Positions 27,057 to 44,891 of a stretch of DNA of 64,000 nucleotides are shown piece after piece (within the stretch, counting starts at the first letter, position 1; each line of letters starts with the position of its first letter). Position numbers and translations under genes: made by a program. The stretch is from NCBI GenBank assembly GCA_003327435.1, contig QOQV01000002.1, positions 124,001-188,000 of the forward strand. The letters are read 5' to 3'. The stretch comes from Ignavibacteriota bacterium. Lineage in GTDB: Bacteria; Bacteroidota; Ignavibacteria; UBA10030; BY39. The notes below the pieces were generated by a model. The model was given only the letters and a program-made list of their open reading frames with translations. It was not told the origin of the DNA and made no database searches.

Positions 27057-27396
27057 AATTAAAATTCGTGAACAATCTGATGTTCAAATAATAGATCTTA
27101 AGGGATATCTGGATGCTCATACGGCTTCAGAATTTGAACAAACAATGCAAAAGTTAATCAATGAAAAAAAGTTTAACATTTTGGTCAATTGTAAAAATTT
27201 ATCCTACATAAGTAGTGCAGGACTTGGCGTCTTTATGGCTTACATTGAAGAAGTCAGAAAATATAAAGGGGACATTAAGTTAGCAAATATGCCACCCAAG
27301 ATTTACAATGTTTTTGATATACTTGGGTTTCCCTTGATATATGAAATATACAACAACGAAGAAGAGGCGCTCAAAAAATTTTTGAAAAAATCCTGA
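27043..27396 (+). CDS. STAS-domain anti-sigma factor antagonist
   Basis: A single STAS domain of 117 residues in the SpoIIAA/RsbV mould. The phosphorylatable serine lies in YISSAGLGVFMAYIEE near residue 58, followed by LANMPPKIYNVFDILGF. In partner switching the dephospho form binds and sequesters the kinase encoded next, with which it overlaps at a shared base. The two neighbouring PP2C genes are the likely phosphatases. Confidence 0.9.
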   Translation: MNDFKIKIREQSDVQIIDLKGYLDAHTASEFEQTMQKLINEKKFNILVNCKNLSYISSAGLGVFMAYIEEVRKYKGDIKLANMPPKIYNVFDILGFPLIYEIYNNEEEALKKFLKKS

Positions 27397-27833
27397 TGAA
27401 ACATCAAAAAGATAAAATAGTAAAATATCTTAAAATTCAAAGTCGAACTGAAAATTTATCGAAGGTAAGGAAATTTGTGTCAGATGCAGCAAAAAAGTTT
27501 GGTTTTGATGAGGATGAAATAAATCATATTGCGCTTGCAGTTGATGAAGCTTGCACTAATATAATACGCCATGCGTATGAGAATCAAGGAGATAAGATTA
27601 TCGAAATTCATTTATTGACATCCAATAATAGCTTTGAAGTGAGAATAATTGATTATGGAAAACCATTCGAACCTGAAAAAATCAGGAAACCTGATCTTAA
27701 ACATCATCTTGAAAGATACAACAAGGGTGGATTAGGGATGTTCTTGATGCGTTCGCTTATGGATAAAGTTGAATACCAAATAAATAAAAATAATCATAAT
27801 GAAGTTCGATTGATTAAAAAACTCAACAAATGA
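27396..27833 (+). CDS. Anti-sigma-type ATP-binding serine kinase (RsbW/SpoIIAB-like)
   Basis: A HATPase_c_2 domain of 145 residues. The N box is DEACTNIIRHAY, the G1 box is DYGKPFEPEKI, and the G2 box is GGLGMFLMRSLMD. Such proteins phosphorylate the STAS antagonist and hold a target protein, usually a sigma factor. No sigma factor gene is nearby, so the target is encoded elsewhere or is not a sigma factor. It overlaps both neighbours by 1-4 bases. Confidence 0.88.
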   Translation: MKHQKDKIVKYLKIQSRTENLSKVRKFVSDAAKKFGFDEDEINHIALAVDEACTNIIRHAYENQGDKIIEIHLLTSNNSFEVRIIDYGKPFEPEKIRKPDLKHHLERYNKGGLGMFLMRSLMDKVEYQINKNNHNEVRLIKKLNK

Positions 27834-29539
27834 AAAAATTAAATTTAATTCAAGAAAAAACAAAAATTGATGTCAGGTCGTTATTTGAGTTTAGTAAAGT
27901 AGTAAATCAAGATGTGAGCATTGAGTTTGTTATAAATTTTTTATTGCTCACACTTATGGGGAAGCTTGTGTGTAACAGGGCAATCGTGTTTTTAAAAAAT
28001 GAAAATGAGGAATTTTATATAAAACTTGCGAAGGGAGTGGAATTCAAAGAAAATTCACCCAAATTTAAATTTATCAAGAATAATTTGAAGTTGTTTTACA
28101 CAAGTGCAATAAGGGAAACCAAAAACACATTTATTAAATATTTAAAGAGAAATGGAATACAATTTGTAATTCCGCTTGTATACAGAAGCAATGTTCTGGG
28201 TTATGTGGGCTTGGGTAGGTTTCAAGAGCGCAGAATATCCAAAGAGGAAGAAAATTATTTAAATTCAATAGTCAATATTGCAGCTTCTGCCATTCAACAA
28301 AAGTCAAACAGGGAAGAATTACTCCGGCTTAATAGGGAACTGGATAAGAAAATTCATCAGATGAATACACTGTTTGATTTGAGTAAGGAATTTGCTTCTA
28401 TACTTGATAAGGAAAAATTACTGAAACTTTTTACTTTATCGCTAATGGGACAGATAGGGATATCGCGTTATGGTATATTTTTAAAAGAGAAAGGTTTAAT
28501 GAAAGTAATGTCATCTCGTTTGCCGGAAAATATTGATTGTGAGTTTTTAAATGGGATTTGTAATTTTAGGAAACCAACACTTACAACAAATATATCAGAA
28601 CCTTCAATAAGAAAATACCTTATGAAAATTGGTATTCAGGTTATAGTACCAATGGCACTTCGAGATGAAGTTCGAGGAATACTTATGCTTGGTGAAAAAA
28701 TGAATAAATCGGATTACTCAGATTCTGATTTAGAATTTTTATATTCCCTGGGAAATGTTGCTATCATATCACTCGAAAATACCAGGTTATTTCAGGAAGC
28801 TATCGAAAAACAACGAATGGAAGATGAATTATTGATTGCAAAAGAAATACAGCAAGGACTACTTCCTAAATCAGTTCCTGAACATAAATGTTTAGATATA
28901 TCAGCAGTTAACATTTCTTCAAAAATTGTAGGAGGTGATTATTACGATGTAATCAGATTAACTGAGGATAGTTTCGTTTTTGCAATTGCGGATGTATCAG
29001 GTAAAGGTACACCAGCATCGCTGTTGATGGCAAGTATTCATGCAATGTTTCATACACTAATACCACTTGGGATGCCTCTCTCAGAACTTGTTAAAAGAAT
29101 GAACGATTTAATTTATGATAACACTTCAAACGATAGGTTTATTACATTTTTCTGTGGTATCTTAGATGTGAAGACAAAAAGCTTTAAATATGTTAATGCA
29201 GGGCATAATTTACCGATACTATTAAAAGGTAATGGCAACATAGTTCGTCTTGATAAGGGTGGTGTATTGTTAGGTATTGCAAAAGAAAATATAACTTATG
29301 AGGAAGGATTTGTTAATTTGGTTAGTGGCGATTTGTTATATATTTTTACAGATGGTGTAACAGAAGCAATGAACTCTGAAAATGTTGAGTTTGGAGAGAA
29401 TAGATTATTAAAAATTCTAAAAGATTATAAGGCATTACCATCGAAAGAAATTCAAAATATTATAATAGATAGTTTAAAAAATTATTGTGGTGAAAACCAA
29501 TCTGACGATATAACAATGTTGATAGTAAAAATTTTATAG
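27830..29539 (+). CDS. Cytoplasmic GAF-GAF-PP2C (RsbU-like) phosphatase
   Basis: A soluble 569-residue relative of the upstream membrane phosphatase. Two GAF-like domains (about residues 10-165 and 190-325) are followed by a linker helix with AKEIQQGLLPKSVPEH and a PP2C domain containing GGDYYDV and ADVSGKGTPAS. Having two phosphatases, one membrane-bound and one soluble, feed one STAS/kinase pair suggests integration of an envelope signal and a cytoplasmic one. The ligand is unknown. The gene ends the partner-switching unit. Confidence 0.88.
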   Translation: MKKLNLIQEKTKIDVRSLFEFSKVVNQDVSIEFVINFLLLTLMGKLVCNRAIVFLKNENEEFYIKLAKGVEFKENSPKFKFIKNNLKLFYTSAIRETKNTFIKYLKRNGIQFVIPLVYRSNVLGYVGLGRFQERRISKEEENYLNSIVNIAASAIQQKSNREELLRLNRELDKKIHQMNTLFDLSKEFASILDKEKLLKLFTLSLMGQIGISRYGIFLKEKGLMKVMSSRLPENIDCEFLNGICNFRKPTLTTNISEPSIRKYLMKIGIQVIVPMALRDEVRGILMLGEKMNKSDYSDSDLEFLYSLGNVAIISLENTRLFQEAIEKQRMEDELLIAKEIQQGLLPKSVPEHKCLDISAVNISSKIVGGDYYDVIRLTEDSFVFAIADVSGKGTPASLLMASIHAMFHTLIPLGMPLSELVKRMNDLIYDNTSNDRFITFFCGILDVKTKSFKYVNAGHNLPILLKGNGNIVRLDKGGVLLGIAKENITYEEGFVNLVSGDLLYIFTDGVTEAMNSENVEFGENRLLKILKDYKALPSKEIQNIIIDSLKNYCGENQSDDITMLIVKIL

Positions 29540-31075: not shown

Positions 31076-31621
31076 ATGGAAAAAAAGATAATAATTATCG
31101 GTTTAGGTAATGAATATATATCTGATGACGGTATTGGTATTAGAGTCGTCAGAGAGTTACAAAAGAAAATTGAGAACGATGATAGAATTCCTTTCTGGTA
31201 TAAAATAAAATTTGAGGAACAAGCTGTTGGTGGGTTAGGAATTTTAGATATAATATTAGGATACGATATATGTGTTATCATTGATGCGATGTATACAAAA
31301 GAAAAAAGAGTTGGTACCTTATATCGATATTTTCAAAAAACAGATAAAGAATTAATTAATATAAAATCATCACACCAAATCAGTTTATCTCAAGTTCTTT
31401 CGTTAGCAAAATTGTTAAATTATAAACTTCCTTCAGTTGTAGTAGTTTATGGTATTGAAGTAGAAGATGTAACTACTTTCGGCGAGAGTTGCACTCCTGA
31501 AGTTGAAAGAAATATAAAAAATTTAACCACTCTCGTATATAATGATTTAGTTGACTTTAATGTTGAAAGATTATCCGAAAATCCTTTATCAGTTTATATT
31601 GAAGAAGAATCAATAAATTAA
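31076..31621 (+). CDS. [NiFe]-hydrogenase maturation endopeptidase (M52 type)
   Basis: The protease cuts the C-terminal extension of a [NiFe]-hydrogenase large subunit once nickel is in place. The 181 residues open with the family motif GLGNEYISDDGIGIRV (residues 9-24, with the metal-binding Glu and Asp), followed by VIIDAMYTK and SSHQISLSQVL. The likely substrate is the MvhA-like subunit encoded 14 kb downstream at the other end of the locus, whose tail runs 27 residues past its last metal motif. The length is slightly greater than usual. Confidence 0.85.
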   Translation: MEKKIIIIGLGNEYISDDGIGIRVVRELQKKIENDDRIPFWYKIKFEEQAVGGLGILDIILGYDICVIIDAMYTKEKRVGTLYRYFQKTDKELINIKSSHQISLSQVLSLAKLLNYKLPSVVVVYGIEVEDVTTFGESCTPEVERNIKNLTTLVYNDLVDFNVERLSENPLSVYIEEESIN

Positions 31622-31639: not shown

Positions 31640-32326
31640 ATGGCACATTTATCAATTCAATCTGCTGGTTATATGAGTAAGAATGAAGCGGAGCTAAGGA
31701 GAATATTTCTTGAACAGGTTAATTTCATTCCTGCAGGGGAGAGGATTAAAAGGTGTATTCAGTGTGGAACCTGCACTGGATCCTGTCCTGTAAGCTATGC
31801 AATGGATATTTCACCACGCCAGCTTATTGCACTTTTCCGTGCAGGGGAAATGGAAACTATAATGAAAAGTCGAACAATCTGGATTTGTGCATCCTGTTAT
31901 GCCTGTACAACCCGATGCCCCTCCGGAATCAAAATAACGGATATTATCTACGCACTCAAGAGAACAGCAATGGAGAAGAATTATTTATCACAGGCAAAGC
32001 ATGTTCAGATTTTAGCAAATCTTTTTGTGAGCAACTTAATGAAGTACGGGCGGTTACACGAAGGTACGCTGATTAGAAATTATTATCTTAAAGTTGGTTT
32101 CTGGAAATTGTTTAAACTCATTCCTTTAGCAAAAAAACTGTATCAGACAAAGAGATTGTCTTTATTTCCTAAGCGAATAAATGCTTACCATTCTTTATCG
32201 AAAATAATCAAAAAAGCCCAGGAAATTGATTTAAGAATTACTGCGCCACCACTGGAGTATTCAACTGATTATGTCGGCTATAGAGCATTAGGCGAAATGA
32301 AACTCGAACAAAGGAAAGGAGAATAA
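31640..32326 (+). CDS. hdrC: Heterodisulfide reductase subunit C-like iron-sulfur protein
   Basis: A 228-residue protein with two cubane [4Fe-4S] motifs, CIQCGTCTGSCP near residue 39 and CASCYACTTRCP near 82, in the spacing of HdrC. HdrC passes electrons from HdrA to the HdrB active site. AGGAGAA precedes the ATG. The C-terminal 100 residues are basic and helical. It lies directly before hdrB (no gap) and 18 bases after the protease gene. Confidence 0.88.
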   Translation: MAHLSIQSAGYMSKNEAELRRIFLEQVNFIPAGERIKRCIQCGTCTGSCPVSYAMDISPRQLIALFRAGEMETIMKSRTIWICASCYACTTRCPSGIKITDIIYALKRTAMEKNYLSQAKHVQILANLFVSNLMKYGRLHEGTLIRNYYLKVGFWKLFKLIPLAKKLYQTKRLSLFPKRINAYHSLSKIIKKAQEIDLRITAPPLEYSTDYVGYRALGEMKLEQRKGE

Positions 32327-33208
32327 ATGAAATACGCATACTACCCAGGATGCAGCCTGGAAAAAACTCAAAGGGGTTATGATGAATCTGTTAGAGAAAT
32401 TTTTAAAACACTTGAACAGGAATTGATTGAAATTGAGGACTGGAATTGTTGTGGAGCCACTATTTATATGTCGGTTAAAGAAACTGTTTCTCTGGCTGTT
32501 TCTGCACGAAACCTTGCCCTCGCAGAGAAGATGGGACTTGATATAATTGCACCGTGCAGTTCTTGCTTTACAATTCTTGCAAAAACCAATAGAATTTTAA
32601 GTCAAATCCCGGAAATGCATAAAAATGTTAATGAGGCTTTAGCTGAAAGTGGGTTAAGTTATAGTGGAAAAACTCGAGTTCGTCACCCCCTGGATATTTT
32701 AGTTAACGATATCGGAATTGAATCAATAATCCATAAAGCAAAAAGAAGTCTGAATGGACTCAAAGTGGCACCTTATTATGGTTGCCAGATAGTTAGACCT
32801 GAGAAAGGGTTTGACGATAGAGAAAATCCAATATTGATGGATAAATTATTCAGTAAATGTGGTGCAGATATCGTTTATTATCCAATGAAAGTAAGATGCT
32901 GCGGTGGAATGTTAATGACTACATTTGAAGAGACAGCACTTAAACTTAACAAGGAATTGTTGGAATGTGCTGAAAAACATCAGGCAGATGTAATTGTGAC
33001 AACCTGTCCACTGTGCCATATGAATCTTGAAGGTTATCAGGATAAAATTAATGAAATTTATAATACTAATTTTAAAATTCCGATATTATATTTTACACAA
33101 CTGCTTGGAATTGTATTGGGATTATCAGAATCAAAATTAGGATTAGATTCTGCTTTTATCCCGGTTACTCCTAAATTGAAATCTATAATGGAGGTTCAAT
33201 ATGTATAA
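32327..33208 (+). CDS. hdrB: Heterodisulfide reductase subunit B-like protein (two CCG domains)
   Basis: HdrB holds two noncubane [4Fe-4S] clusters that split a disulfide. Both CCG domains are complete in these 293 residues: YYPGCSLEKT, NCCGATIY and PCSSCFT in the first, YYGCQIVRP, RCCGGML and TTCPLCHMNLE in the second. All the expected cysteines are present, so the catalytic site looks intact. In methanogens the substrate is CoM-S-S-CoB; the bacterial substrate is unknown. Its stop overlaps the hdrA N-terminal gene by 8 bases. Confidence 0.88.
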   Translation: MKYAYYPGCSLEKTQRGYDESVREIFKTLEQELIEIEDWNCCGATIYMSVKETVSLAVSARNLALAEKMGLDIIAPCSSCFTILAKTNRILSQIPEMHKNVNEALAESGLSYSGKTRVRHPLDILVNDIGIESIIHKAKRSLNGLKVAPYYGCQIVRPEKGFDDRENPILMDKLFSKCGADIVYYPMKVRCCGGMLMTTFEETALKLNKELLECAEKHQADVIVTTCPLCHMNLEGYQDKINEIYNTNFKIPILYFTQLLGIVLGLSESKLGLDSAFIPVTPKLKSIMEVQYV

Positions 33209-34073
33209 AGAAACAACAGAAGGTAACGGTCAAGTTAAAATTGGCGTCTATATTTGCCATTGCGGAGTAAACATAGCTGCAACTGTTAATGTAGCTGCTG
33301 TAAGAGATTTCATAGCTAAACAACCTAATGTTGCAATTGCACGGGATTATAAATTTATGTGCTCTGATCCCGGACAGGATTTAATAAAGCAAGATATTAA
33401 AAATCTTGGCATTAATAGGGTTGTTGTAGCTGCATGTTCACCATTGATGCATGAGTTAACATTTAGAGTTGCTGCAGAATCAGCTGGATTGAATCGTTAT
33501 CTTGTACAAATAGCAAATATTAGAGAACATTGTTCCTGGGTGCACGATGATCGGGATGCGGCAACTGAAAAAGCAAAAGCTCTTGTTAATGCAGCAGTGA
33601 AACGTGTTGCACTCCATAAAGAACTTCAAATTACAAAACAACCTCTAAATAAAAATACATTAATAGTCGGTGGTGGAATTGCTGGAATTCAAGCAGCTCT
33701 TGAGATTGCGAATGCTGGATATCATGTATATCTGGTAGAAAGAGAACCGTCTATTGGCGGTAAAATGGGGCAATTTGATAAAACATTTCCAACACTCGAC
33801 TGCGCCGCATGTATATTGACTCCAAAAATGGTATCAGTAGGCCACCGTAAAGATATCACGCTTTTAACATATTCTGAAGTAGAAAGTGTTTCGGGATATA
33901 TTGGTAACTTTAAAATCAAAGTGCGTAAAAAAGCTCGATATGTAGATACTGAAAAATGCACAGGATGTGGCCAATGCTGGAGTAACTGTCCAGCAACTCG
34001 AATACCTTCAGGCCGCGCAATTTATTTTGGAGATAAGTTAGTAAATGAAATATCTACTAAACCCAAAGAATAG
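33201..34073 (+). CDS. N-terminal half of HdrA (free-standing flavin-binding half)
   Basis: The 290 residues match only the first half of HdrA, normally about 650 residues. Visible are the N-terminal ICHCGVNIAATVNV, KFMCSDPGQ and AACSPLMHELTF segments, the FAD Rossmann motif GGGIAG (157-162), EREPSIGGKMGQFDKTFPTLDC, the CAAC pair (201 and 204), and one ferredoxin motif with Cys253, 256, 259 and 263. It then stops, right where HdrA continues with an AIYxP segment. The second half is fused to another protein at 40584-42344. The next gene is an unrelated DRTGG protein, so this is not a local frameshift. The FAD site would be completed by the partner polypeptide. Confidence 0.85.
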   Translation: MYKETTEGNGQVKIGVYICHCGVNIAATVNVAAVRDFIAKQPNVAIARDYKFMCSDPGQDLIKQDIKNLGINRVVVAACSPLMHELTFRVAAESAGLNRYLVQIANIREHCSWVHDDRDAATEKAKALVNAAVKRVALHKELQITKQPLNKNTLIVGGGIAGIQAALEIANAGYHVYLVEREPSIGGKMGQFDKTFPTLDCAACILTPKMVSVGHRKDITLLTYSEVESVSGYIGNFKIKVRKKARYVDTEKCTGCGQCWSNCPATRIPSGRAIYFGDKLVNEISTKPKE

Positions 34074-34075
34074 AA

Positions 34076-34468
34076 ATGTTACTTTCTGAAATTGCAAAAA
34101 TATTGTCATGTGAAATATTTTCGTGTAGAGAAAATCTAGATTGTGAAATTCAATATGGTTGCGCTTCTGATTTAATGAGCGATGTACTTGCTTTTTCACA
34201 ACCTGGCGCTGTGTTGCTAACAGGACTTGTAAATCCTCAAACAATTCACACGGCATATATATCAGAGATAAAAGCAATAGTTTTCGTAAGAGGTAAAAAA
34301 CCCCAGGAAGATGTTACTGAATTAGCTGAAAGCAAATCTATACCTTTGTTATCTACAAATTATTCAATGTATGAGGCATGTGGATTACTTTATAAAGCCG
34401 GTTTAGAGTCAACTATGGAATATATACCACCAAATTCATCAAAGAAATCATTTAATAGTTCTTCTTAA
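34076..34468 (+). CDS. DRTGG-domain protein
   Basis: A 130-residue single DRTGG-type domain, recognisable by GCASDLMSDVLAFSQPGAVLLTGL near residues 33-56 and VFVRGKKPQEDV. In other bacteria such small proteins are encoded in [FeFe]-hydrogenase clusters. The role is unknown; a regulatory ligand-binding domain is likely. A second copy flanks the hydrogenase-like gene at 36219. It overlaps the HATPase gene by a base. Confidence 0.75.
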   Translation: MLLSEIAKILSCEIFSCRENLDCEIQYGCASDLMSDVLAFSQPGAVLLTGLVNPQTIHTAYISEIKAIVFVRGKKPQEDVTELAESKSIPLLSTNYSMYEACGLLYKAGLESTMEYIPPNSSKKSFNSSS

Positions 34469-34893
34469 TGAATGAAGTTTTTTCACAAACATATGAAATT
34501 AGAGGTAACGATTTTCAAAATGCGGGTAAAGTTTCAACAGACATTAAAACTTTACTAAAACAATTAGGAATAAGACCAGAAATCATCAGAAAAGTTGCTA
34601 TTGCCTGTTATGAAGCTGAAATGAACATCGTTATGTATGCTAAGATAGGAACAATGAGAATGGATATTGACACAGAAAAAATTAAAATTACAGTTTCAGA
34701 TCAAGGTCCAGGAATTGCGGACATTGAGCTTGCAATGACAGAAGGATACTCCACTGCGACGCAAGAAATGAGAGAAATGGGCTTTGGAGCTGGAATGGGT
34801 CTGCCAAATATTAAAAAGAATTCTGATGAATTTAAAATTGAATCTACTTTAGGAATTGGTACCAAACTTGAAATTACAATTTTTATCAATTAA
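34468..34893 (+). CDS. RsbT/RsbW-like ATP-binding protein
   Basis: A 141-residue HATPase with N box YEAEMNIVMYA, G1 box DQGPGI and G2 box GFGAGMGLPNIKKNS, closest in layout to RsbT-type serine kinases. It lies between a DRTGG gene and the [FeFe]-hydrogenase-like gene. It is a possible output of the hydrogenase-like sensor; its partner is unknown, but the STAS protein at 27043 is a candidate. Confidence 0.82.
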   Translation: MNEVFSQTYEIRGNDFQNAGKVSTDIKTLLKQLGIRPEIIRKVAIACYEAEMNIVMYAKIGTMRMDIDTEKIKITVSDQGPGIADIELAMTEGYSTATQEMREMGFGAGMGLPNIKKNSDEFKIESTLGIGTKLEITIFIN

Positions 34894-34895
34894 AA

Positions 34896-36218
34896 ATGCA
34901 GAACGATTTTAGATCAATAAAGATTGACAGAGAAAAATGCCAGGGTCGAATGGCTTGTATGCGTATCTGTCCCACACAGGCAATAAGGGTCAGGAATCGC
35001 AAAGCCACGCTTTTGAATGATAGATGCATCGATTGTGGAATGTGTGTAAGAGTATGTCCAAATAATGCAGTAGTTCCACAGACCAGTTCTTTCAGTGATT
35101 TTACAAGATTTAAATATACGATTGCATTACCTTCACCTGTTTTGTATTCTCAATTCAGAGGCGAATTTACGCCAGGTGCAATATTAAACGCTTTTAAGAA
35201 AATCGGATTTGATGATGCATATGACGTTGCCTGTGCATCAGAAGCTGTTAGCATTGCAATTCAAGAGTTTCTTGATAATAGTACCTTAAATCAAACATAT
35301 ATTTCTCCATTCTGCCCTGTGATTGTTAGGTTAATTCAAATCAGGTATCCTAATTTATTGGAAAATCTGATACCGATAGATTCCCCGATGGAGATTGCAG
35401 CTCGTGAAGCTAAAAATCTAAAAATGAAAGAAACAGGCTTAAATGCCAAGGAAATCGGAGTAATATATATTACACCATGTCCAGCTAAAATGATTGCTAT
35501 AAAAAATCCACCAAGAAAAAAATACTCTTTCGTTGACGGAGCTATTTCAATAGCACAAATTTATCCAAATTTATTACAAGCACTTAACCAACAGGATACT
35601 GTTGGAGCTAAAGAGGTTAAAGGTATTGGTTTGGGCTGGCCAATATTGGGTGGACAGGTATCCACTTTGAGAGCACACGACACAATTGCTATTGCGGGAA
35701 TAATGGAGGTAATTAGAATTTTTGAAGATTTAGAAAATGGTAAACTTAAAAATATCAAATATATCGAATGTCATTCCTGCAGTACTGCATGTGTTGGTGG
35801 ATCCTTAAATGTAGAAAATCCTTATATGTCCAGAAATCGTGTTATAAAATTGTTAGAAAAATATGGAAATACTCCCTGTCAGGATAGAGATTATGTAAAA
35901 AACCTGATACAAAAAAATTTCTTTTCTTTACCCGGCAAAATTGATGCTACACCTATTGCTCCTATTGATAGTGATATCTCTCAAGCTTTGAAAAAAATGC
36001 AAGAGAAAGTCACAATTTATGAAAAATTACCAAAAATTGATTGTGGGGCTTGCGGTTCACCAGATTGTAATACATTTGCTGAAGATATAATTACAAATAA
36101 TGCTGAGATTGAGGATTGTATTTTCGTGGCTATGAAAAAATTTGAGAACCTATCAGTAGAACTAATAGATATCGTAAAAAAACATTCAAATAAAATTTAT
36201 AGGAACATTAATATATAA
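34896..36218 (+). CDS. Divergent [FeFe]-hydrogenase-like protein (putative sensory type)
   Basis: The 440 residues contain two N-terminal ferredoxin motifs, an H-cluster domain and a C-terminal CGACGSPDC Fe-S motif (383-391). H-cluster ligands are kept: Cys140 in SPFCP, Cys195 in TPCPAK, Cys295 and Cys299 in HSCSTAC. The proton-relay cysteine before Cys140 is Phe139. The first ferredoxin motif has Arg18 in place of its second cysteine (Cys15-x5-Cys21-x3-Cys25). The N-terminal dicluster, C-terminal motif and lost relay cysteine fit the group C/D, putative sensory hydrogenases. Maturases HydE, F and G are not in the window. It sits between signalling genes, which supports an H2-sensing role. 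Confidence 0.75.
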   Translation: MQNDFRSIKIDREKCQGRMACMRICPTQAIRVRNRKATLLNDRCIDCGMCVRVCPNNAVVPQTSSFSDFTRFKYTIALPSPVLYSQFRGEFTPGAILNAFKKIGFDDAYDVACASEAVSIAIQEFLDNSTLNQTYISPFCPVIVRLIQIRYPNLLENLIPIDSPMEIAAREAKNLKMKETGLNAKEIGVIYITPCPAKMIAIKNPPRKKYSFVDGAISIAQIYPNLLQALNQQDTVGAKEVKGIGLGWPILGGQVSTLRAHDTIAIAGIMEVIRIFEDLENGKLKNIKYIECHSCSTACVGGSLNVENPYMSRNRVIKLLEKYGNTPCQDRDYVKNLIQKNFFSLPGKIDATPIAPIDSDISQALKKMQEKVTIYEKLPKIDCGACGSPDCNTFAEDIITNNAEIEDCIFVAMKKFENLSVELIDIVKKHSNKIYRNINI

Positions 36219-36563
36219 ATGAAATTAGAAGAAATTATTAGAATACTAAATTTGAAAATCATAACAAGCGAGAAGTTTTTAAACAGGACAATCACTGGTG
36301 GTTATGCAAGCGATTTATTGAGCGATGTAATTGCCAATGCTCAAAGTGGCAATTTATGGATTACAATGCAAACTCATATCAATATCGTAGCTGTGGCTGT
36401 ACTTAAAGAGTTATCGGCAATTATCATTGTCAATGGTAGAAACCCTGCAGATGATACTATAAAGAAGGCAGAAGAGCAGGGTGTAGTAATTATGTGCAGC
36501 GATTTGCCCGCATTTAAATTATGCGGGAAGTTATATGAATTAGGTATCGGCAAAGATAATTAA
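36219..36563 (+). CDS. Second DRTGG-domain protein
   Basis: A 114-residue homologue of the DRTGG protein at 34076: GGYASDLLSDVIANAQSGNLWITMQ aligns with the same segment, and INGRNP-like VNGRNPADDT follows. Its stop overlaps the PHP gene by a base. The two copies flank the HATPase and hydrogenase-like pair and may form a heterodimer. Confidence 0.72.
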   Translation: MKLEEIIRILNLKIITSEKFLNRTITGGYASDLLSDVIANAQSGNLWITMQTHINIVAVAVLKELSAIIIVNGRNPADDTIKKAEEQGVVIMCSDLPAFKLCGKLYELGIGKDN

Positions 36564-37312
36564 TGTCAAAAATTTATAAGGCAGATTTGCATATTCATAC
36601 ATGCTTATCGCCTTGCGGTGATTTAAAAATGTCACCCAAGAATATCATAGAGCAGGTTCTTAAAAATAACATCGAAATTATAGCTATATGTGATCATAAT
36701 TCTGCTAAAAATATTCCAGCTGTTATTAGAGCAGCTCATAATAAAAATGTGTGTGTAATACCAGGAATGGAAATATCAACAATTGAAGAAGTTCATATAC
36801 TTGCGCTCTTTGAAAACATCGAATTTGCAAATGAAATGGAAAAGCTCGTTTACGAAAATCTTGAAGGACTCAATGATCCAGATTTATTCGGTATGCAGGT
36901 AATAGCCAATGAATTCGATGAAGTTGAAGGTTTTGAGGAAAAATTGCTTATCGGTTCAGTTAATTTGAGTATTGAGCAAGTAGTTGATTATATACACAAA
37001 TTTAACGGGCTTGCCATAGCAAGTCATATTGATAAGCAACATTACAGTATAATTAGTCAGTTAGGTTTTATCCCTGAAAATCTTCAGCTTGATGCTCTGG
37101 AAATTTCTAAAAATCTGGATCAAACTGAAACAAAGCTTATTATGAGTAAATATAGCAGATTTCCATTTCTCAAGAATTCCGATGCACATTTTATTGAAGA
37201 TTTAGGAAATGTTTTTAATGAGTTTCTTATAGAACAACCCACTTTTGAAGAAATTAAAAAAGCTCTTCAAGGTGAAGCTGGAAGAAAAGTAAATATTGGT
37301 CGGGTTATGTGA
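36563..37312 (+). CDS. PHP-domain phosphoesterase
   Basis: A 249-residue PHP (polymerase and histidinol phosphatase) domain. The metal motif is DLHIHTCLSPCGDL (residues 6-19), with further ligands in ICDHNS, EVHILALF and IASHIDKQ and the closing NSDAH. It is likely a phosphatase or nuclease-like hydrolase of a small nucleotide. PHP genes of this kind recur beside [FeFe]-hydrogenase genes in Firmicutes and Thermotogae. The substrate is unknown. Confidence 0.78.
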   Translation: MSKIYKADLHIHTCLSPCGDLKMSPKNIIEQVLKNNIEIIAICDHNSAKNIPAVIRAAHNKNVCVIPGMEISTIEEVHILALFENIEFANEMEKLVYENLEGLNDPDLFGMQVIANEFDEVEGFEEKLLIGSVNLSIEQVVDYIHKFNGLAIASHIDKQHYSIISQLGFIPENLQLDALEISKNLDQTETKLIMSKYSRFPFLKNSDAHFIEDLGNVFNEFLIEQPTFEEIKKALQGEAGRKVNIGRVM

Positions 37313-37313
37313 T

Positions 37314-37865
37314 TTGGAAGATTTATCTTTACATATATTGGATATAGTTGAAAATTCTATAAGAGCTGGTGCAAGAAATGTTAAAATTAAGATTATTATA
37401 GATAAAAAAAATGATTTGTTAAATTTAGAAATAGAAGATGATGGTAAAGGAATGACGCAAGATGAAGTAAATAAAATATTTGACCCTTTTTACACAGGTC
37501 AAAACAAGAAAACAGGTTTAGGACTATCGCTTTTAAAAGATTCGGTAGAAAAAGCTGAGGGTCAGATTAATGTTTTTTCTAAAGTTAATACAGGCACAAA
37601 AGTAGTTGCAAACTTTAAATTAAGTAATCCAGATATGATACCGATTGGTGACATAAGTGAGACAATGTTAGTTTTAGCAATCAGTAATCAGGATGTCCGC
37701 TTTAAATTGAATCATATTTGCAATGGAAATGAATTTGTTTTTGACACGGATGAGTTTAAGGAAGCAAGAAATGATTCATTAAATTTTTTGAAGGAAGTTA
37801 AGAACAAATTAGAAAATTATAAGAAATTTTTAGCAACCATAAAAGGAGATTTATATGGAATATAA
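37314..37865 (+). CDS. Histidine-kinase-like ATPase domain protein
   Basis: A lone HATPase of about 183 residues. From TTG at 37314 it begins MEDLSLHILDIVENSIRAGA, the usual opening of this family; an upstream TTG at 37296 would add six residues. N box ENSIRAGA, G1 box DDGKGM and G2 box KTGLGLSLLKDS are present. It lacks the phospho-acceptor domain of a true histidine kinase. The gene begins 2 bases after the PHP stop and overlaps the NuoE-like gene by 11 bases. Confidence 0.75.
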   Translation: MEDLSLHILDIVENSIRAGARNVKIKIIIDKKNDLLNLEIEDDGKGMTQDEVNKIFDPFYTGQNKKTGLGLSLLKDSVEKAEGQINVFSKVNTGTKVVANFKLSNPDMIPIGDISETMLVLAISNQDVRFKLNHICNGNEFVFDTDEFKEARNDSLNFLKEVKNKLENYKKFLATIKGDLYGI

Positions 37866-38322
37866 CGCAACAGAAGTCGCAAAAAAAATTGCTGCTCGAT
37901 GGGGCAACAAACCTGAAAACATTATTGAAATGATGCACGATATTCAAACTGAATTAAATTATTTACCAAAAGATGTTTTATATGAGGTATCAAAGTTTGC
38001 AAGTGTTCCGATTAGTAAAATATATAATATTGCAACTTTTTATAATGCCTTCAGTTTAAAGCCAAAAGGAAAATACAAAATTTGTGTTTGTATGGGTACG
38101 CCTTGCCATGCTTTAGGTGCGCCAAGAATAGTTAGTGCACTTGAGAGAGAACTTGAAATTAAATGTGGTGACACCACTAAAGATATGAAATACAGTCTTG
38201 AAATTACCGGATGTGTCGGTACTTGCGGTTTAGCTCCTGTTGTTGTGATAAACGAAGACCTATATGGACCAGTGCAGGTTTCAGGTGTCCAAAAATTAAT
38301 TAAAAAATATGATTCAAAGTAA
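37855..38322 (+). CDS. NuoE/HydC-like [2Fe-2S] diaphorase subunit
   Basis: A 155-residue thioredoxin-like ferredoxin. The [2Fe-2S] ligands are in CMGTPCHALGA (C-x4-C) and TGCVGTCGLAP (C-x3-C). NuoE and HydC sit against the FMN subunit and take part in electron transfer from NADH. AAGGAG precedes its ATG within the HATPase gene. The next two genes are the ferredoxin-like and NuoF/HydB-like subunits, the standard HydC-HydB order. Confidence 0.9.
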   Translation: MEYNATEVAKKIAARWGNKPENIIEMMHDIQTELNYLPKDVLYEVSKFASVPISKIYNIATFYNAFSLKPKGKYKICVCMGTPCHALGAPRIVSALERELEIKCGDTTKDMKYSLEITGCVGTCGLAPVVVINEDLYGPVQVSGVQKLIKKYDSK

Positions 38323-38334
38323 GGAGATGATAAG

Positions 38335-38718
38335 ATGGGAAAATTAAAAATTGAAGACTTAGATAAAATTTCAGAAAGTGTACGTAAAAGAATTAGTTTA
38401 AGAGAAGGTGCTGGAAAAGTTAAAATAACCGTTCATATGGGAACTTGCGGTATTGCCGCAGGTGCAAGAAATGTGATGACTGCTTTTTTAAACGAAATTG
38501 AAATCCACAATGCAAAAGATATTATTGTTGTTACATCAGGATGTGCGGGTTTATGTAGTAAAGAACCAATGGTTACTATAGAATATGAAAATCAAGCACC
38601 TGTTAAATATATAGAATTAAATGAGGAAAAGGTTAAAAAAATTTTTGATGAGCATGTATTACACGGAAAAATTGTACCTGAATATGCTCTTTCGATTGGA
38701 AGTGAAAGAATTCAATAA
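38335..38718 (+). CDS. Thioredoxin-like [2Fe-2S] ferredoxin
   Basis: A 127-residue protein with MGTCGIAAGAR near residue 38 and SGCAGLCSKEP near 63. Homologues lie between NuoE and NuoF genes in many [FeFe]-hydrogenase operons. Only three or four cluster cysteines are evident, the first pair being reduced to a single cysteine in GTCG, so cluster binding needs checking. It is expected to be part of or partner to the diaphorase module. Confidence 0.8.
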   Translation: MGKLKIEDLDKISESVRKRISLREGAGKVKITVHMGTCGIAAGARNVMTAFLNEIEIHNAKDIIVVTSGCAGLCSKEPMVTIEYENQAPVKYIELNEEKVKKIFDEHVLHGKIVPEYALSIGSERIQ

Positions 38719-38736: not shown

Positions 38737-40569
38737 ATGAAGAATTACAGATTACAACTTATGGTGTGTGCTGGTACTGCCTGTGTATCAAATCATTCTT
38801 TGGAAATCAAGGAAGCACTGGAAAGAGAAATTAAAAATCATAATTTGGAAAATGAAGCGCAGGTGGTTCAAACGGGTTGTAATGGTTTTTGTGGAGCTGG
38901 TCCAATATTGGTAGTACAACCAGATGGAATTTTTTATCAGCTACTAAAAGTTACAGATGTAAAACAAATAGTTGAGGAACACCTAATAAAAGGAAGACCG
39001 GTAAAGAAACTTTTATACACACCACCAGAAGAAAAAACACCTATTCCAAAGTTATCCGATATTCCATTCTTCGCTGAGCAAACACTTATTGCTTTAAGGA
39101 ATAGGGGTTTAATCGATCCAGAGAATATTGATGATTATATCGCTCGAGGTGGTTATAAGGCGCTTGCAAAAGTTTTAACTTCGATGACGCCTGATGAGGT
39201 GTTAAATGAGATTAAAATATCCGGCTTGAGGGGTAGAGGAGGTGGAGGATTTCCAACAGGTGTAAAATGGGAATCCTGTAAGAAAGCACACGGAGATGAA
39301 AAATATGTAATTTGTAATGCCGATGAAGGTGATCCAGGAGCATTTATGGATAGATCAATAATTGAAGGAGATCCACACTCTGTAATAGAAGGTATGATTA
39401 TCGGTGCATATGCTATAGAAAATGTTAAACAGGGTTATATTTATGTTAGAATGGAGTACCCGCTTGCGATAAAACGGTTTCAGATAGCCATCAATCAAGC
39501 AAGAGAATATGGATTATTGGGTCAGAACATTTTTGATAAAGGTTTTGACTTTGATATAGAAATTCGACGTGGTGCAGGTGCATTTGTCTGTGGAGAATCT
39601 ACTGCATTAATGGCTTCGATCGAAGGTAAACCAGGTGAACCAAGAGCAAAATATATTCACACGGTTGAGAAAGGTTTATGGGATAAACCGACTTGTTTGA
39701 ATAATGTTGAAACCTGGGCAAATGTGCCACAAATAATTTTACGAGGTGGGAAATGGTTTGCAAGCATCGGAACAGGAGATGTTTCGGAAGATCCCTGGGG
39801 TGGTAGCAAAGGAACTAAGGTTTTCTCTCTGGCTGGAAAAGTAAACAACACTGGCCTCGTTGAAGTCCCTATGGGAATTACACTACGTGATATAATCTTT
39901 AGAATAGGCGGTGGGATTAGAGATGGTAAAAAGTTCAAAGCTGTACAAACTGGTGGTCCATCTGGTGGTTTTATCCCTGAAAGTTTAATAGATTTACCTG
40001 TTGATTATGAAGAATTGACAAAGGTTGGCTCAATGATGGGTTCCGGTGGAATGGTTGTAACTGATGAAGATAATTGCATGGTTGATATGGCAAAGTACTT
40101 CCTGGCTTTCACCCAAGCAGAATCCTGCGGTAAATGTATTCCATGTCGAGAAGGTACAAAGAGGATGCTTGATATTTTAGAAAAAATCACTGCTGGACAG
40201 GGGACTGAAGAAGATTTGGTATTATTAGAAGAATTATCAAATGCTATTGTAGAATCCTCTTTATGTGCACTTGGTGGTTCGGCACCCAATCCAGTTCTCA
40301 CCACCTTAAAATATTTTAGAGATGAATATGAAGCACATGTAAAAGATAAAAAATGCCCAGCTCATATCTGTCGCCAGTTAAATACATATAAAATTAATGA
40401 AAAAATATGTCTTGAAATTGGACATGGTTGTGATGTATGTAAAAAATATTGTCCTGATGGAGCAATCATTGGAGAAAGGAAAAAAGTTCATTACATAGAT
40501 CCGGCAAAGTGTGGTAAATGTGGTGCTTGCTATGATGTATGTAATTTTAATGCAATTTACATCGAATAA
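38737..40569 (+). CDS. NuoF/HydB-like NAD(P)H-binding flavoprotein
   Basis: A 610-residue subunit with four parts: a thioredoxin-like [2Fe-2S] domain (Cys11, Cys16 and QTGCNGFCGAG), the NuoF FMN/NAD core with GLRGRGGGGFPTGVKWE (about 164-180) and NADEGDPGAFMDR, the [4Fe-4S] motif ESCGKCIPCREG, and a C-terminal pair of ferredoxin motifs (CDVCKKYCP, CGKCGACYDVC). This is the layout of HydB from electron-bifurcating hydrogenases, which joins NAD(H) to the iron-sulfur chain. Next comes the HydA/HdrA fusion, at a 14-base gap. Confidence 0.92.
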   Translation: MKNYRLQLMVCAGTACVSNHSLEIKEALEREIKNHNLENEAQVVQTGCNGFCGAGPILVVQPDGIFYQLLKVTDVKQIVEEHLIKGRPVKKLLYTPPEEKTPIPKLSDIPFFAEQTLIALRNRGLIDPENIDDYIARGGYKALAKVLTSMTPDEVLNEIKISGLRGRGGGGFPTGVKWESCKKAHGDEKYVICNADEGDPGAFMDRSIIEGDPHSVIEGMIIGAYAIENVKQGYIYVRMEYPLAIKRFQIAINQAREYGLLGQNIFDKGFDFDIEIRRGAGAFVCGESTALMASIEGKPGEPRAKYIHTVEKGLWDKPTCLNNVETWANVPQIILRGGKWFASIGTGDVSEDPWGGSKGTKVFSLAGKVNNTGLVEVPMGITLRDIIFRIGGGIRDGKKFKAVQTGGPSGGFIPESLIDLPVDYEELTKVGSMMGSGGMVVTDEDNCMVDMAKYFLAFTQAESCGKCIPCREGTKRMLDILEKITAGQGTEEDLVLLEELSNAIVESSLCALGGSAPNPVLTTLKYFRDEYEAHVKDKKCPAHICRQLNTYKINEKICLEIGHGCDVCKKYCPDGAIIGERKKVHYIDPAKCGKCGACYDVCNFNAIYIE

Positions 40570-40583
40570 TAAAGGAGAGAAAA

Positions 40584-42344
40584 ATGGTTACTATAAAAAT
40601 TGACGATATCGAAGTTCAGGTTCCAGAAGATACCCCGATACTTAAAGCTGCCGAAAAAGCGGGAATATGGATACCAACAATGTGTTATAATGATCTTATC
40701 GAACCATATGGAGTATGCCGTCTCTGTAGTGTAGAAGTTATTAGGGGTAAACGCAGTAGAGTTGTTACATCCTGCAATTATCCTGTTAGAGAAGGAATTT
40801 CCGTACGCACAAATTCTGAAAAAATTAAATGGATAAGAAAAGTTATAATGGAGTTAATGGTCTCCAGATGGCCTAATGTTAAAGTTGTACGCGAAATGGC
40901 TGAAAAACTCGGAATCGAAAAACCGCGATTTGAGTCATTGGAAAAGGATGAAGCTCCAGATGCTTGTATACTATGTGGACTTTGTGTAAATGTATGTCGG
41001 GATCTGGTTGGTGCGAGTATCCTCGGTTTTGCTTATAGAGGTATTAAAAGAGAAGTAGTTTTACCTTTCGATGAAATAACAGATAAATGTATTGTCTGTG
41101 GTGCTTGTGCTCATGTTTGTCCTACTGGACATGTTAAAATGATAGTTGAAGATTATAAGGGAAAGAAACCTGAATTTACATTAGGCCCAAAAACTGCAAT
41201 ATATGTTCCATCAATGCAGGCAGTACCTCGTGTTCCCGTTATTGATCCAGAATCATGTATTCACTTTAAAACAGGCGGTTGTGAAACCTGTGCTAAAGTT
41301 TGTGAACCTAAAGCAATAAATTATGAAATGAAAGACGAAGTTGTTGAGATAGATGTTGGTCAAATTCTTGTAGCCACTGGTTACGACTTGTTTGATGCTT
41401 CACAAATGGCTCAATATGGATATGGAAGATATGACAATGTATATAGTTCACTTGAATTTGAAATGATGTTAAATTCCACCGGTCCAACAGGCGGTAAAGT
41501 TTTAACGAAAGATGGTAAAGAACCTCGTGCGGTGGGTATTATCCATTGCATCGGCTCCCGAGATACAAATTATCATCCATATTGTTCGCGGGTTTGTTGT
41601 ATGTATGCGTTAAAATTTGCTCACCTTGTGCATGATCGAACAAATGCGGCAATATATCAATTCTATATTGATATGAGAGCTTTTGGAAAAGGATATGAAG
41701 AATTTTATTCGAGGTTGTTGGATGAAGGTATAAATATGATTCGTGGTAAAGCAGCAGAGGTGGTCGAAGCTCCTCCTGTAAATGGTCAGCAAGGTAACCT
41801 TTTAATTAGATGCGAGGATACATTGATTGGCAAGTTTAGAGAAATTCCTGTTGATATGGTAATCCTTTGTAATGCAATTGAACCTAAGCGCGACAGTGAT
41901 ATAATTCGCAGATTGTTCTCCATCAGTAAAAGTCCAGATGGATTTTTCCTCGAAAGACATCCAAAACTTGATCCTACTGCAACTACAACTGATGGTGTCT
42001 ATATCGCAGGTTGTGCACAGGGTCCAAAGGATATTCCTGATACCGTTGCACAGGCAAGCTCTGCAGCAGCGAGAATATTGACATTAATTTCCAGAGGTGA
42101 AGTAGAAATTGATCCGGTACGCGCAATGGTTATGGATGAGTATTGCTCTGGATGTAGAATATGTAATAATTTATGTCCTTATGGCGCCATTGAGTTTCTC
42201 GAAGATAAGAAAATATCACATGTAAACGAAGCCCTCTGTAAGGGATGCGGTACCTGTGTTGCTGCCTGTCCATCGTCAGCAATGACAGGTCAGGGTTTCA
42301 CAGACGCACAAATTCTATCTGAATTAGAAGGTTTATTGATTTAA
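40584..42344 (+). CDS. HydA/NuoG-like Fe-S domain fused to C-terminal half of HdrA
   Basis: A 586-residue chimera. Residues 1-75 form a [2Fe-2S] domain (Cys34, 45, 48, 64). Residues 125-185 carry two [4Fe-4S] motifs (128-138 and 169-179); the His-Cys cluster usual between them in NuoG/HydA is absent. From about residue 200 the sequence is HdrA's second half: AIYVPSMQAVPRVP, Cys225/233/236/240, IDVGQILVATGYD (FAD domain), GSRDTNYHPYCSRVCCMYA, DMRAFGKGYEEFY, and two final ferredoxins (521-531 and 552-562). It begins where the 33201-34073 protein stops, so the two should make one HdrA-like unit. No H-cluster domain is present, unlike HydA. It likely wires NADH diaphorase to the Hdr/Mvh side. Confidence 0.85.
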   Translation: MVTIKIDDIEVQVPEDTPILKAAEKAGIWIPTMCYNDLIEPYGVCRLCSVEVIRGKRSRVVTSCNYPVREGISVRTNSEKIKWIRKVIMELMVSRWPNVKVVREMAEKLGIEKPRFESLEKDEAPDACILCGLCVNVCRDLVGASILGFAYRGIKREVVLPFDEITDKCIVCGACAHVCPTGHVKMIVEDYKGKKPEFTLGPKTAIYVPSMQAVPRVPVIDPESCIHFKTGGCETCAKVCEPKAINYEMKDEVVEIDVGQILVATGYDLFDASQMAQYGYGRYDNVYSSLEFEMMLNSTGPTGGKVLTKDGKEPRAVGIIHCIGSRDTNYHPYCSRVCCMYALKFAHLVHDRTNAAIYQFYIDMRAFGKGYEEFYSRLLDEGINMIRGKAAEVVEAPPVNGQQGNLLIRCEDTLIGKFREIPVDMVILCNAIEPKRDSDIIRRLFSISKSPDGFFLERHPKLDPTATTTDGVYIAGCAQGPKDIPDTVAQASSAAARILTLISRGEVEIDPVRAMVMDEYCSGCRICNNLCPYGAIEFLEDKKISHVNEALCKGCGTCVAACPSSAMTGQGFTDAQILSELEGLLI

Positions 42345-42544: not shown

Positions 42545-43471
42545 ATGATACCATCTTATATAAAATTGAAAAATTCTAATGAGTTATCTCTGAGAGTTGA
42601 TAAATTATACGAATTAATGAAAGAATGTAAATTGTGTCCAAGAAACTGTAAAGCGAAAAGATTCGAAAAGAGATATGGTGTGTGCCGTTCGACTGAACAA
42701 ATATATGTTTCAAGTTTGATGACGCATTTTGGTGAAGAAACTGTTTTAGTTGGCTGGAATGGTTCAGGAACCGTTTTTTTTACAAATTGCAATCTCTGGT
42801 GCCTATATTGTCAAAACTATGATATAAGTCATTTAAAAAATGGAGAACCGGTAAGCGTACAACAATTAGCTGAAGCTATGTTATCACTCCAGCAATTAGG
42901 TTGTCATAATATTAATCTGGTGACACCAACCCATTATGTTCCAATGATTGTAGAATCATTAAATATTGCAGCTGAAAAAGGGTTAAACATACCGATTGTT
43001 TACAATTGTGGTGGTTATGAATCAGTCGAAACCCTAAAATACCTGGACGGAATTATTGATATCTATATGCCAGATATAAAATATTCAGATAATCGTAATT
43101 CGAAGAAATATTCTGGAGTTAAGGATTATTGGGATGTTGCTCGAAAAGCTGTGATTGAAATGCATCGTCAGGTTGGAGATTTAAAAATTAACAATTTTGG
43201 TATCGCCGAAAGAGGTCTATTGGTGCGTCATCTTGTTCTACCAAACAATATATCAGGTTCAGAAAAAGTATTGGAGTTTATAGCAAATGAAGTTTGTATC
43301 GATACTTATGTGAATATAATGGATCAGTATAGGCCGTGTTTTAAAGCAAAATTCTTTCCAGAACTAAACAGAAGAATAACCGAATCAGAATATCAATATG
43401 TTTTAGATTATGCTGAATCATTAGGTTTACACAGAGGATTTGGCAAATATGAAAAATTATTAATAACATAA
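42545..43471 (+). CDS. Radical-SAM protein, PflX/AmmeMemoRadiSam-like
   Basis: A 308-residue radical-SAM protein with the cluster motif CNLWCLYC (CxxxCxxC) near residue 84, preceded by a cysteine-rich N-terminus (CKLCPRNCKAKRFEKRYGVC) typical of the PflX group (COG1313). These relate to pyruvate formate-lyase activases but have no proven role. Sitting between the HdrA fusion and mvhD, it may modify or mature a complex subunit, which is speculation. Confidence 0.82.
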   Translation: MIPSYIKLKNSNELSLRVDKLYELMKECKLCPRNCKAKRFEKRYGVCRSTEQIYVSSLMTHFGEETVLVGWNGSGTVFFTNCNLWCLYCQNYDISHLKNGEPVSVQQLAEAMLSLQQLGCHNINLVTPTHYVPMIVESLNIAAEKGLNIPIVYNCGGYESVETLKYLDGIIDIYMPDIKYSDNRNSKKYSGVKDYWDVARKAVIEMHRQVGDLKINNFGIAERGLLVRHLVLPNNISGSEKVLEFIANEVCIDTYVNIMDQYRPCFKAKFFPELNRRITESEYQYVLDYAESLGLHRGFGKYEKLLIT

Positions 43472-43486
43472 AGAAAGGTAATTACA

Positions 43487-43918
43487 ATGGCTTTTGAACC
43501 AAAAATAATTGGCTTTTTATGTAACTGGTGTTCATATTCAGGAGCAGATCTTGCGGGTGTATCAAGGATTAAATCTGCACCCAATGTAAGAGTTATTCGT
43601 ACGATGTGTAGTGGCAGAGTTGATCCTACATTTATATTAAAAGCATTTCAATTAGGAGCAGATGGGGTAGTTGTCATGGGATGCCACCCAGGCGATTGTC
43701 ATTATCAAGAGGGAAACTACAAAACAATGCGGCGAATACCATTCCTTAAAAAGCTTATAAAAGATTTCGGTATTGAACCAGAACGTTTAAGATTGGAATG
43801 GGTGAGTGCATCAGAAGGAGATCGATATGCTACAGTTGTGAATGAGTTTACTGAGGAAATTCGAAAACTTGGCCCTATAAAACACCCTTCATGTAAAGTA
43901 AAACTTGAACAAATATAA
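43487..43918 (+). CDS. mvhD: MvhD-like [2Fe-2S] subunit of F420-nonreducing hydrogenase
   Basis: A 143-residue protein with the family pattern FLCNWCSYSGADLAG, RTMCSGRVDP, GCHPGDCHYQEGN. MvhD joins the hydrogenase to HdrA in methanogen MvhADG-HdrABC complexes through its [2Fe-2S] cluster. Placement directly before mvhG and mvhA matches that role here. It stops 10 bases before the chosen mvhG start. Confidence 0.92.
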   Translation: MAFEPKIIGFLCNWCSYSGADLAGVSRIKSAPNVRVIRTMCSGRVDPTFILKAFQLGADGVVVMGCHPGDCHYQEGNYKTMRRIPFLKKLIKDFGIEPERLRLEWVSASEGDRYATVVNEFTEEIRKLGPIKHPSCKVKLEQI

Positions 43919-43928
43919 GGAGAAAGAT

Positions 43929-44891
43929 ATGGATAAACCAAAATTAGCATTATACTGGGCAGCAAGCTGTGGTGGATGCGAAATCGCAGTCCTCGATATT
44001 CAGGAAAAAATATTAGATGTAGCAAACGCTTTTGATATAGTATTCTGGCCCGTAGCAATGGATTTTAAATATGATGATGTCAGAAAAATGGAAGATAAAA
44101 GTATAGATATTTGCCTCTTTAATGGGGCGATAAGAAATTCTGAAAACGAAGAAATTGCACATTTGCTTAGACAAAAATCAAAAGTATTAGTGGCATTTGG
44201 CTCCTGCGCATATGAAGGTGGAATACCTGGTTTAGCAAACCTGAGTACAAAAGAAGAAATGTTAAACTTTGTTTATAAAGAATCACCTTCAACTATTAGT
44301 AATAACAATGGGTTACCTCAAACACATTATAAAGTAAATGAAGGTGAAATTGAAATTCCCGAATTGTATGAATATGTAAAACCCTTGAAGGATGTAGTTG
44401 ACGTAGATTATTATATTCCAGGTTGTCCGCCACAACCTGAACAAATCTGGAATGTTATTGAATATATTTTAAGCGGTAAACCATTGCCACCTGCTGGCTC
44501 AGTGTTAGGTGCTGGTGATAAAACTTGTTGCGACGAGTGTCCGCGTGAAAGAAAAGAGAAGAAAATTAAGGAGTTTCATCGTCCATATGAAATCATTCCA
44601 AATCCTGACGAATGTTTGTTAGATCAGGGCATTATTTGTATGGGACCAGCAACCAGAAGCGGTTGCGGAGCATTATGTGTAAAAGCCAATGTTCCGTGCC
44701 GTGGTTGTTACGGAGCACCACCAAACTGTCTGGATCAGGGAGCGAAAATGATCAGTGCTCTTAGTTCCGTTATTGATGCACATTCACCTGAAGAAATTGA
44801 ACAGATCCTTGGCACAATTACTGATGCTGTGGGTACATTTTATAGATTTTCGTTACCATACTCAATACTTAAAAGGAGGGTTGTACAATGA
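43929..44891 (+). CDS. mvhG: [NiFe]-hydrogenase small subunit (MvhG-like, group 3c)
   Basis: A 320-residue small subunit carrying three iron-sulfur clusters from the [NiFe] site to MvhD. The proximal motif is AASCGGCEIAV (Cys14, Cys17), GSCAYEGGIPG supplies the third ligand and IPGCPPQPEQIW the fourth. A ferredoxin-like C-terminal region with several cysteines (CCDECPRE, GCGALCVKANVPCRGCYG) follows. The ATG at 43929 is chosen because AAGGAGA lies just upstream; an ATG at 43905 overlaps mvhD. No twin-arginine signal is present, so the enzyme is cytoplasmic. Confidence 0.92.
   Translation: MDKPKLALYWAASCGGCEIAVLDIQEKILDVANAFDIVFWPVAMDFKYDDVRKMEDKSIDICLFNGAIRNSENEEIAHLLRQKSKVLVAFGSCAYEGGIPGLANLSTKEEMLNFVYKESPSTISNNNGLPQTHYKVNEGEIEIPELYEYVKPLKDVVDVDYYIPGCPPQPEQIWNVIEYILSGKPLPPAGSVLGAGDKTCCDECPRERKEKKIKEFHRPYEIIPNPDECLLDQGIICMGPATRSGCGALCVKANVPCRGCYGAPPNCLDQGAKMISALSSVIDAHSPEEIEQILGTITDAVGTFYRFSLPYSILKRRVVQ

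Follow-up and report, generated by a model that had tools for sequence, protein, structure and literature searches.

A group D-type [FeFe]-hydrogenase homolog, probably without an H-cluster, encoded in an NADH-linked Hdr/[NiFe] operon of Ignavibacteriota

The hydS locus and its conserved cassette

A 64,000-nt stretch of DNA from an Ignavibacteriota bacterium (assembly GCA_003327435.1, contig QOQV01000002.1, positions 124,001–188,000 of the forward strand; hereafter, the window) encodes a HydS-like homolog of group D-like [FeFe] hydrogenases at positions 34896–36218 of the plus strand. The open reading frame runs from an ATG to a stop codon and encodes 440 aa, and no comparable reading was found on the opposite strand. 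Pfam matches to Fe_hyd_lg_C (1.9e-25), to a C-terminal FeS domain (PF04060, 1.3e-12), and to ferredoxin domains outline a protein with two N-terminal ferredoxin motifs, an H-domain, and a C-terminal FeS domain, while comparison with a defence-system library returned no match. An AlphaFold2 model (pLDDT 93.1) matches solved [FeFe] hydrogenases (best E 7.6e-20, TM ~0.65), and by this prediction the H-domain fold is kept.

The initial annotation read this protein correctly at the level of residues. All four H-cluster cysteines (C140, C195, C295, and C299) are present and, together with K198 (K358 in CpI), are invariant across 56 homologs. Phe139 occupies the position of CpI C299, the relay cysteine of group A enzymes, and the first ferredoxin motif (C15-x2-R18-x2-C21-x3-C25) carries Arg18 in place of its second cysteine. 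Position M353 of CpI corresponds to T193, the hydroxyl residue of group D, and a C-terminal [4Fe-4S] motif that had gone unmentioned spans C383-x2-C386-x4-C391-x16-C408. Among eight orthologs from several families of the same taxonomic order, the window protein included, identity to HydS is 63–84%, Phe139 is invariant, and position 18 is R, H, or Q but never Cys. The dN/dS ratio against the nearest ortholog is ~0.06, an approximate value given the high dS, and HydS is under strong purifying selection. With such identities and such a ratio, sequencing error or decay can be dismissed. The R18 site may plausibly hold a [3Fe-4S] cluster or no cluster at all. In the Ignavibacterial homologs L088, L100, and L118, position 18 is Asp or Glu, and such a side chain could supply a carboxylate ligand of the type known from some Asp-ligated ferredoxins.

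The surrounding genes all lie on the plus strand. Upstream are genes for a [NiFe] hydrogenase maturation protease of the HycI family (31076–31621), an HdrC-like 4Fe-4S protein (31640–32326) and an HdrB-like CCG-domain protein (32327–33208), both further supported by conserved gene order, the N-terminal part of HdrA as a separate gene (33201–34073, HdrA2 profile 1–256), a first DRTGG-domain protein (34076–34468), and, directly preceding hydS, a GHKL ATPase resembling SpoIIAB/RsbW anti-sigma factors (34468–34893). Downstream follow a second DRTGG-domain protein (36219–36563; scoring under the Pfam cut-off, yet found at a conserved position), a PHP-domain phosphoesterase-like protein (36563–37312), a second GHKL ATPase (HATPase_c, 37296–37865), a NuoE/HydC-like [2Fe-2S] subunit (37855–38322), a thioredoxin-like [2Fe-2S] ferredoxin (38335–38718), and a NuoF/HydB-like NADH-binding flavoprotein (38737–40569). 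The series continues with a NuoG N-terminal [2Fe-2S]/ferredoxin region fused to the C-terminal part of HdrA (40584–42344, HdrA2 profile 240–638), an MvhD (FlpD) subunit (43487–43918), and the small (VhuG/MvhG-like, 43905–44891) and large (VhuA/MvhA-like, 44888–46354) subunits of a [NiFe] hydrogenase. HdrA is thus split over 33201–34073 and 40584–42344 with the regulatory cassette between its parts, an order conserved across phyla.

The cassette itself (DRTGG, SpoIIAB/RsbW-like GHKL ATPase, HydS, DRTGG, PHP, GHKL ATPase, NuoE, 2Fe-2S, NuoF) also keeps its order across phyla. Its flanks differ: an [FeFe] HydA comes next in Firmicutes, whereas in Ignavibacteria, Aminicenantes, Acidobacteria, and others, genes for HdrC, HdrB, and the HdrA N-terminal part stand before it and those for the NuoG-HdrA fusion, MvhD, MvhG, and MvhA after it. 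At two further loci (L065:145-12985 and L070:4072-12987), the cassette lies near NuoE/NuoF and GcvH-like lipoyl-domain proteins, and searches of these possibly incomplete genomes turned up no [NiFe] large subunit and no other H-domain protein. Because NuoEF stays with the cassette next to [FeFe] HydA, next to Hdr/[NiFe], and also where no hydrogenase was found, its constant partner is the NADH-linked NuoEF rather than a hydrogenase. An upstream partner-switch module (SpoIIE-GAF, STAS, RsbW, SpoIIE-GAF; 24930–29539) adjoins the operon in the same genus and family only and was left out of the system.

Strict synteny with NuoE, 2Fe-2S, NuoF, and HdrA-N, and the several Fe-S sites of HydS, would also suit a protein that serves the NuoEF-Hdr-Mvh complex as a structural or electron-transfer subunit and not as a regulator. 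We regard such a role as improbable: HydS accompanies GHKL ATPases, DRTGG, and PHP proteins and not redox subunits alone, it is less conserved outside the genus than HdrA-N (62–68% vs. 85–92% identity), and its relative TamHydS has been studied as a stand-alone protein.

Descent from group D and loss of its proton relay

In a maximum-likelihood tree (quick search) built without TamHydS and with reference groups A, B, and C assigned by motif and domain layout, HydS and Firmicutes M2e (group D)-like proteins form one clade with 100% SH-aLRT support, apart from the reference sequences of groups A, B, and C. HydS therefore descends from group D (M2e, TamHydS-type) [FeFe] hydrogenases, and the H-domain phylogeny, suggested as a check by the initial annotation, bears out the kinship to the putative sensory groups C/D proposed there. 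Membership of group C (TmHydS type) was rejected, as there is no PAS match in the 440 aa and group C sequences fall in a separate clade. The architecture is that of group D: two ferredoxin motifs, the H-domain, a C-terminal Cx2Cx4Cx16C motif, and no PAS domain. The C-terminal motif is exactly the one described for the sensory groups C and D (PMC8163306, also the source of these architectural features of group D), and HydS shows the loss of C299 (F139), the replacement of M353 by Thr (T193), the four H-cluster cysteines, and the K358 equivalent. Its R31/R33 and E396/D397 match the residues of the salt bridge between N- and C-terminal domains predicted for TamHydS (PMC13104023). HydS departs from group D in the cysteine set of the N-terminal [4Fe-4S] sites, which is incomplete at R18.

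TamHydS has Ala137 at the relay-cysteine position (PMC10407848). Loss of this cysteine, which the initial annotation considered typical of groups C/D, is indeed normal for group D, but alone is neither diagnostic nor remarkable. The relay E252-E289-S249-D265 (TamHydS numbering) is reported to replace the group A pathway in group D, and variants of E252 retained <0.01% of H2 oxidation (PMC10407848). By alignment, the equivalent residues in HydS are Q254, E291, L251, and A267; the group D relay is not present, with the equivalents of both E252 and D265 lost.

Of 85 homologs, 46 retain Glu at the E252-equivalent position, among them nearly all from Firmicutes or in an [FeFe] context, and the other 39 have Q, I, V, M, L, or A; the [NiFe]/Hdr-linked clade has lost the Glu throughout. 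The ferredoxin cysteine is missing only from sequences already without this Glu (33/33) and from none that retain it. Loci adjoining [FeFe] HydA have Cys at position 18 in 25/25 cases and Ala at position 139 in 24/25, while at [NiFe]/Hdr-context loci position 18 is non-Cys in 30 of 33 readable sequences and 20 of 34 carry Phe at position 139 (the others A, S, T, or V). Phe139 was accordingly rejected as the key marker of the clade, which is better separated by the E252 equivalent and Cys18. These traits change only 2–4 times on the tree (three times for E254). Trait loss is associated with maturase loss (Fisher p = 1.3e-4, a value that ignores relatedness; an independent-pairs test has no power at 3–4 changes), and the association of relay loss with maturase absence rests on few independent events.

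Absence of known H-cluster maturases

HydS is the single H-domain protein of its genome, which is 98.6% complete with 0.2% contamination. Searches of this genome with curated cut-offs gave no match to HydG, only weak radical-SAM matches to HydE (best 41.5 bits vs. a cut-off of 254.6), and GTPase-domain matches alone to HydF (best 87.9 vs. 325.55 bits). Such a search for hydE, hydF, and hydG had been proposed in the initial annotation, which held HydS to be an H2 or redox sensor and named absence of an H-cluster as counting against that role; with none of the three above cut-off, that absence is now likelier. As a sensor of this class needs an H-cluster, the H2 half of the proposal, to which the lost group D relay also speaks, finds no support, and the redox half is the better reading.

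A survey of 59 genomes extends this pattern. In the 30 that carry H-domain proteins of the HydS clade only, neither HydG nor HydE was found above cut-off (0/30); completeness is known for the window-order genomes (96–100%, eight used), and other metagenome-assembled genomes may miss genes. Four [NiFe]-type clade members do come from genomes with HydG (L066, L068, L073, and L080), each of which also holds another canonical H-domain protein (301–349 bits) that can explain the HydG. Absence here refers to the known maturase families. Within the open-access literature searched, there was no report on maturase-free group D homologs or on such a clade.

Several observations concern other possible routes to a cofactor. 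One of the 30 genomes, likewise without HydG, encodes a HydE-like protein (G004:C74:41555-42418) that scores 245.9 bits, just below the HydE cut-off of 254.6. The radical SAM protein at 42545–43471 of the window was rejected as a substitute maturase, since none was seen in the operon at the other examined loci. Five genomes (G007, G012, G047, G101, and G107) encode a canonical HydA, yet no HydG was found in them, which makes an unrecognised maturation route conceivable. In three of these (G007, at L142:6017-11531, and, in the same order, G012 and G047), a canonical-looking HydA of 608–612 aa with TSCSPGW and EVMTCPGGC motifs is accompanied by NuoE and a NuoF-pyridine nucleotide oxidoreductase fusion, and these 98–100% complete genomes have no HydG and no HydE over the cut-off despite the HydA. 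The bifurcating HydA at L123 and A. woodii HydA1 (PDB 7q4v) likewise read TSCSPGW where CpI has TSCCPGW, with Ser at the position of the cluster ligand C300. Apo-TamHydS takes up synthetic [2Fe] without maturases (PMC8163306), so another cofactor source for HydS is possible.

HydS could then be a genuine slow H2 sensor whose H-cluster depends on unrecognised maturation or an imported cofactor, as in group D generally. Its group D architecture, the four H-cluster cysteines, the adjoining H2-converting [NiFe] operon, and the relatives with canonical HydA but no HydG all agree with this possibility. So does the retention of T193 and of K198, whose CpI counterpart K358 contacts a cyanide ligand; both are kept as an H-cluster would want, and count against its loss. 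We nevertheless consider an H2 sensor unlikely, given that no HydE, HydF, or HydG exceeds its cut-off, that the E252 and D265 equivalents are lost and a bulky Phe faces the bridgehead, and that the cassette persists in genomes that yielded no [NiFe] large subunit and no further H-domain protein.

A probable redox regulator and its known relatives

We therefore favour, as the probable explanation, a group D derivative without an H-cluster that serves as an Fe-S redox regulator of the NADH-linked Hdr/[NiFe] complex, and give a true H2 sensor a lower probability. That HydS lies within the [NiFe] operon and is not its likely catalyst, as the initial annotation had it, remains part of this explanation. 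From these features we infer the absence of the [2Fe] subcluster, the redox sensing, and the signalling route alike. HydS keeps the H-domain fold and the four cysteines that hold the [4Fe-4S] part, and retains one complete and one altered N-terminal ferredoxin site in addition to the C-terminal [4Fe-4S] site, but probably no longer builds or uses an H-cluster. The [2Fe] pocket may be empty or filled by another cluster, as has been suggested for the Nar1 pocket. The NADH/ferredoxin pool of the NuoEF-HdrABC-Mvh complex would supply the electrons that set the cluster state, making HydS a putative sensor of Fe-S redox state or Fe-S integrity. This state could alter how HydS interacts with the GHKL ATPases, DRTGG proteins, and PHP phosphoesterase encoded alongside it, and these may in turn adjust the expression or the activity of the complex.

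Nar1 offers a precedent, as its H-domain functions in the absence of [2Fe]H and its pocket may hold a [2Fe-2S] cluster (PMC12621388). The same precedent, along with an H-domain that probably lacks [2Fe]H and an altered, possibly labile first ferredoxin site, could suggest that HydS is a Nar1-like carrier or assembly factor for Fe-S clusters. We hold this to be very improbable, as HydS has no link to Fe-S assembly genes, usually occurs in one copy, and is tied to a specific redox operon. The altered ferredoxin site also has a consequence: the C20A variant of TamHydS, in which an N-terminal ligand is disrupted, is destabilised (PMC13104023), so the HydS clade with R18-type sites must have compensated.

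More broadly, it is an evenly balanced question whether a widespread bacterial group D clade has given up H2 sensing for pure redox sensing, with the [2Fe] subcluster gone, a plain or different Fe-S cluster in the pocket, and the cassette carried over when the [FeFe] partner was exchanged for [NiFe]/Hdr or for a non-hydrogenase NuoEF. If so, this clade would be the bacterial equivalent of H-domains of the Nar1 type. The label of H2 sensor that group C/D hydrogenases bear rests mostly on analogy, and a sister clade with the same cassette and cluster ligands, but without maturases and the proton relay, offers a natural experiment to separate the part of the signal that depends on the H-cluster from the part for which [4Fe-4S] clusters suffice. 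The clade is also a warning for metagenomics: PF02906 matches with all four cysteines should not be equated with H2 conversion or H2 sensing before HydEFG and the E252 equivalent have been checked.

Set against known systems, HydS is of the group D [FeFe]-hydrogenase kind, and what is new is probably a variant without an H-cluster tied to an NADH-linked Hdr/[NiFe] operon. TamHydS of Thermoanaerobacter mathranii shares with it the domain order, the C-terminal Cx2Cx4Cx16C motif, the lack of PAS, the loss of C299, the hydroxyl at M353, the R31/R33 and E396/D397 salt-bridge pair, and a nearby gene for a histidine kinase-like ATPase. However, TamHydS combines Ala137 with the relay Glu252 and shows activity with a [2Fe] subsite, whereas HydS has Phe139 and Gln254, and Arg18 where a ferredoxin Cys would stand; its genome yielded no maturases, and its partner is [NiFe]/Hdr rather than [FeFe]. 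TmHydS (group C, M2f) is likewise of a putative sensory class, with the relay Cys lost and a C-terminal Fe-S motif, but contains a PAS domain and belongs to the separate group C-like clade. The eukaryotic Nar1/IOP1 resembles HydS, as read here, in an H-domain with [4Fe-4S] sites and no [2Fe]H cofactor; Nar1 serves cytosolic Fe-S assembly, whereas HydS is a bacterial protein with additional N- and C-terminal Fe-S motifs and a tie to a redox operon. As for the operon, MvhADG-HdrABC (group 3c [NiFe]) and HydABC provide its known components, HdrABC and MvhADG joined with a HydBC/NuoEF module, but unlike either system it encodes HdrA in two genes with a NuoG fusion and places a regulatory cassette between the parts.
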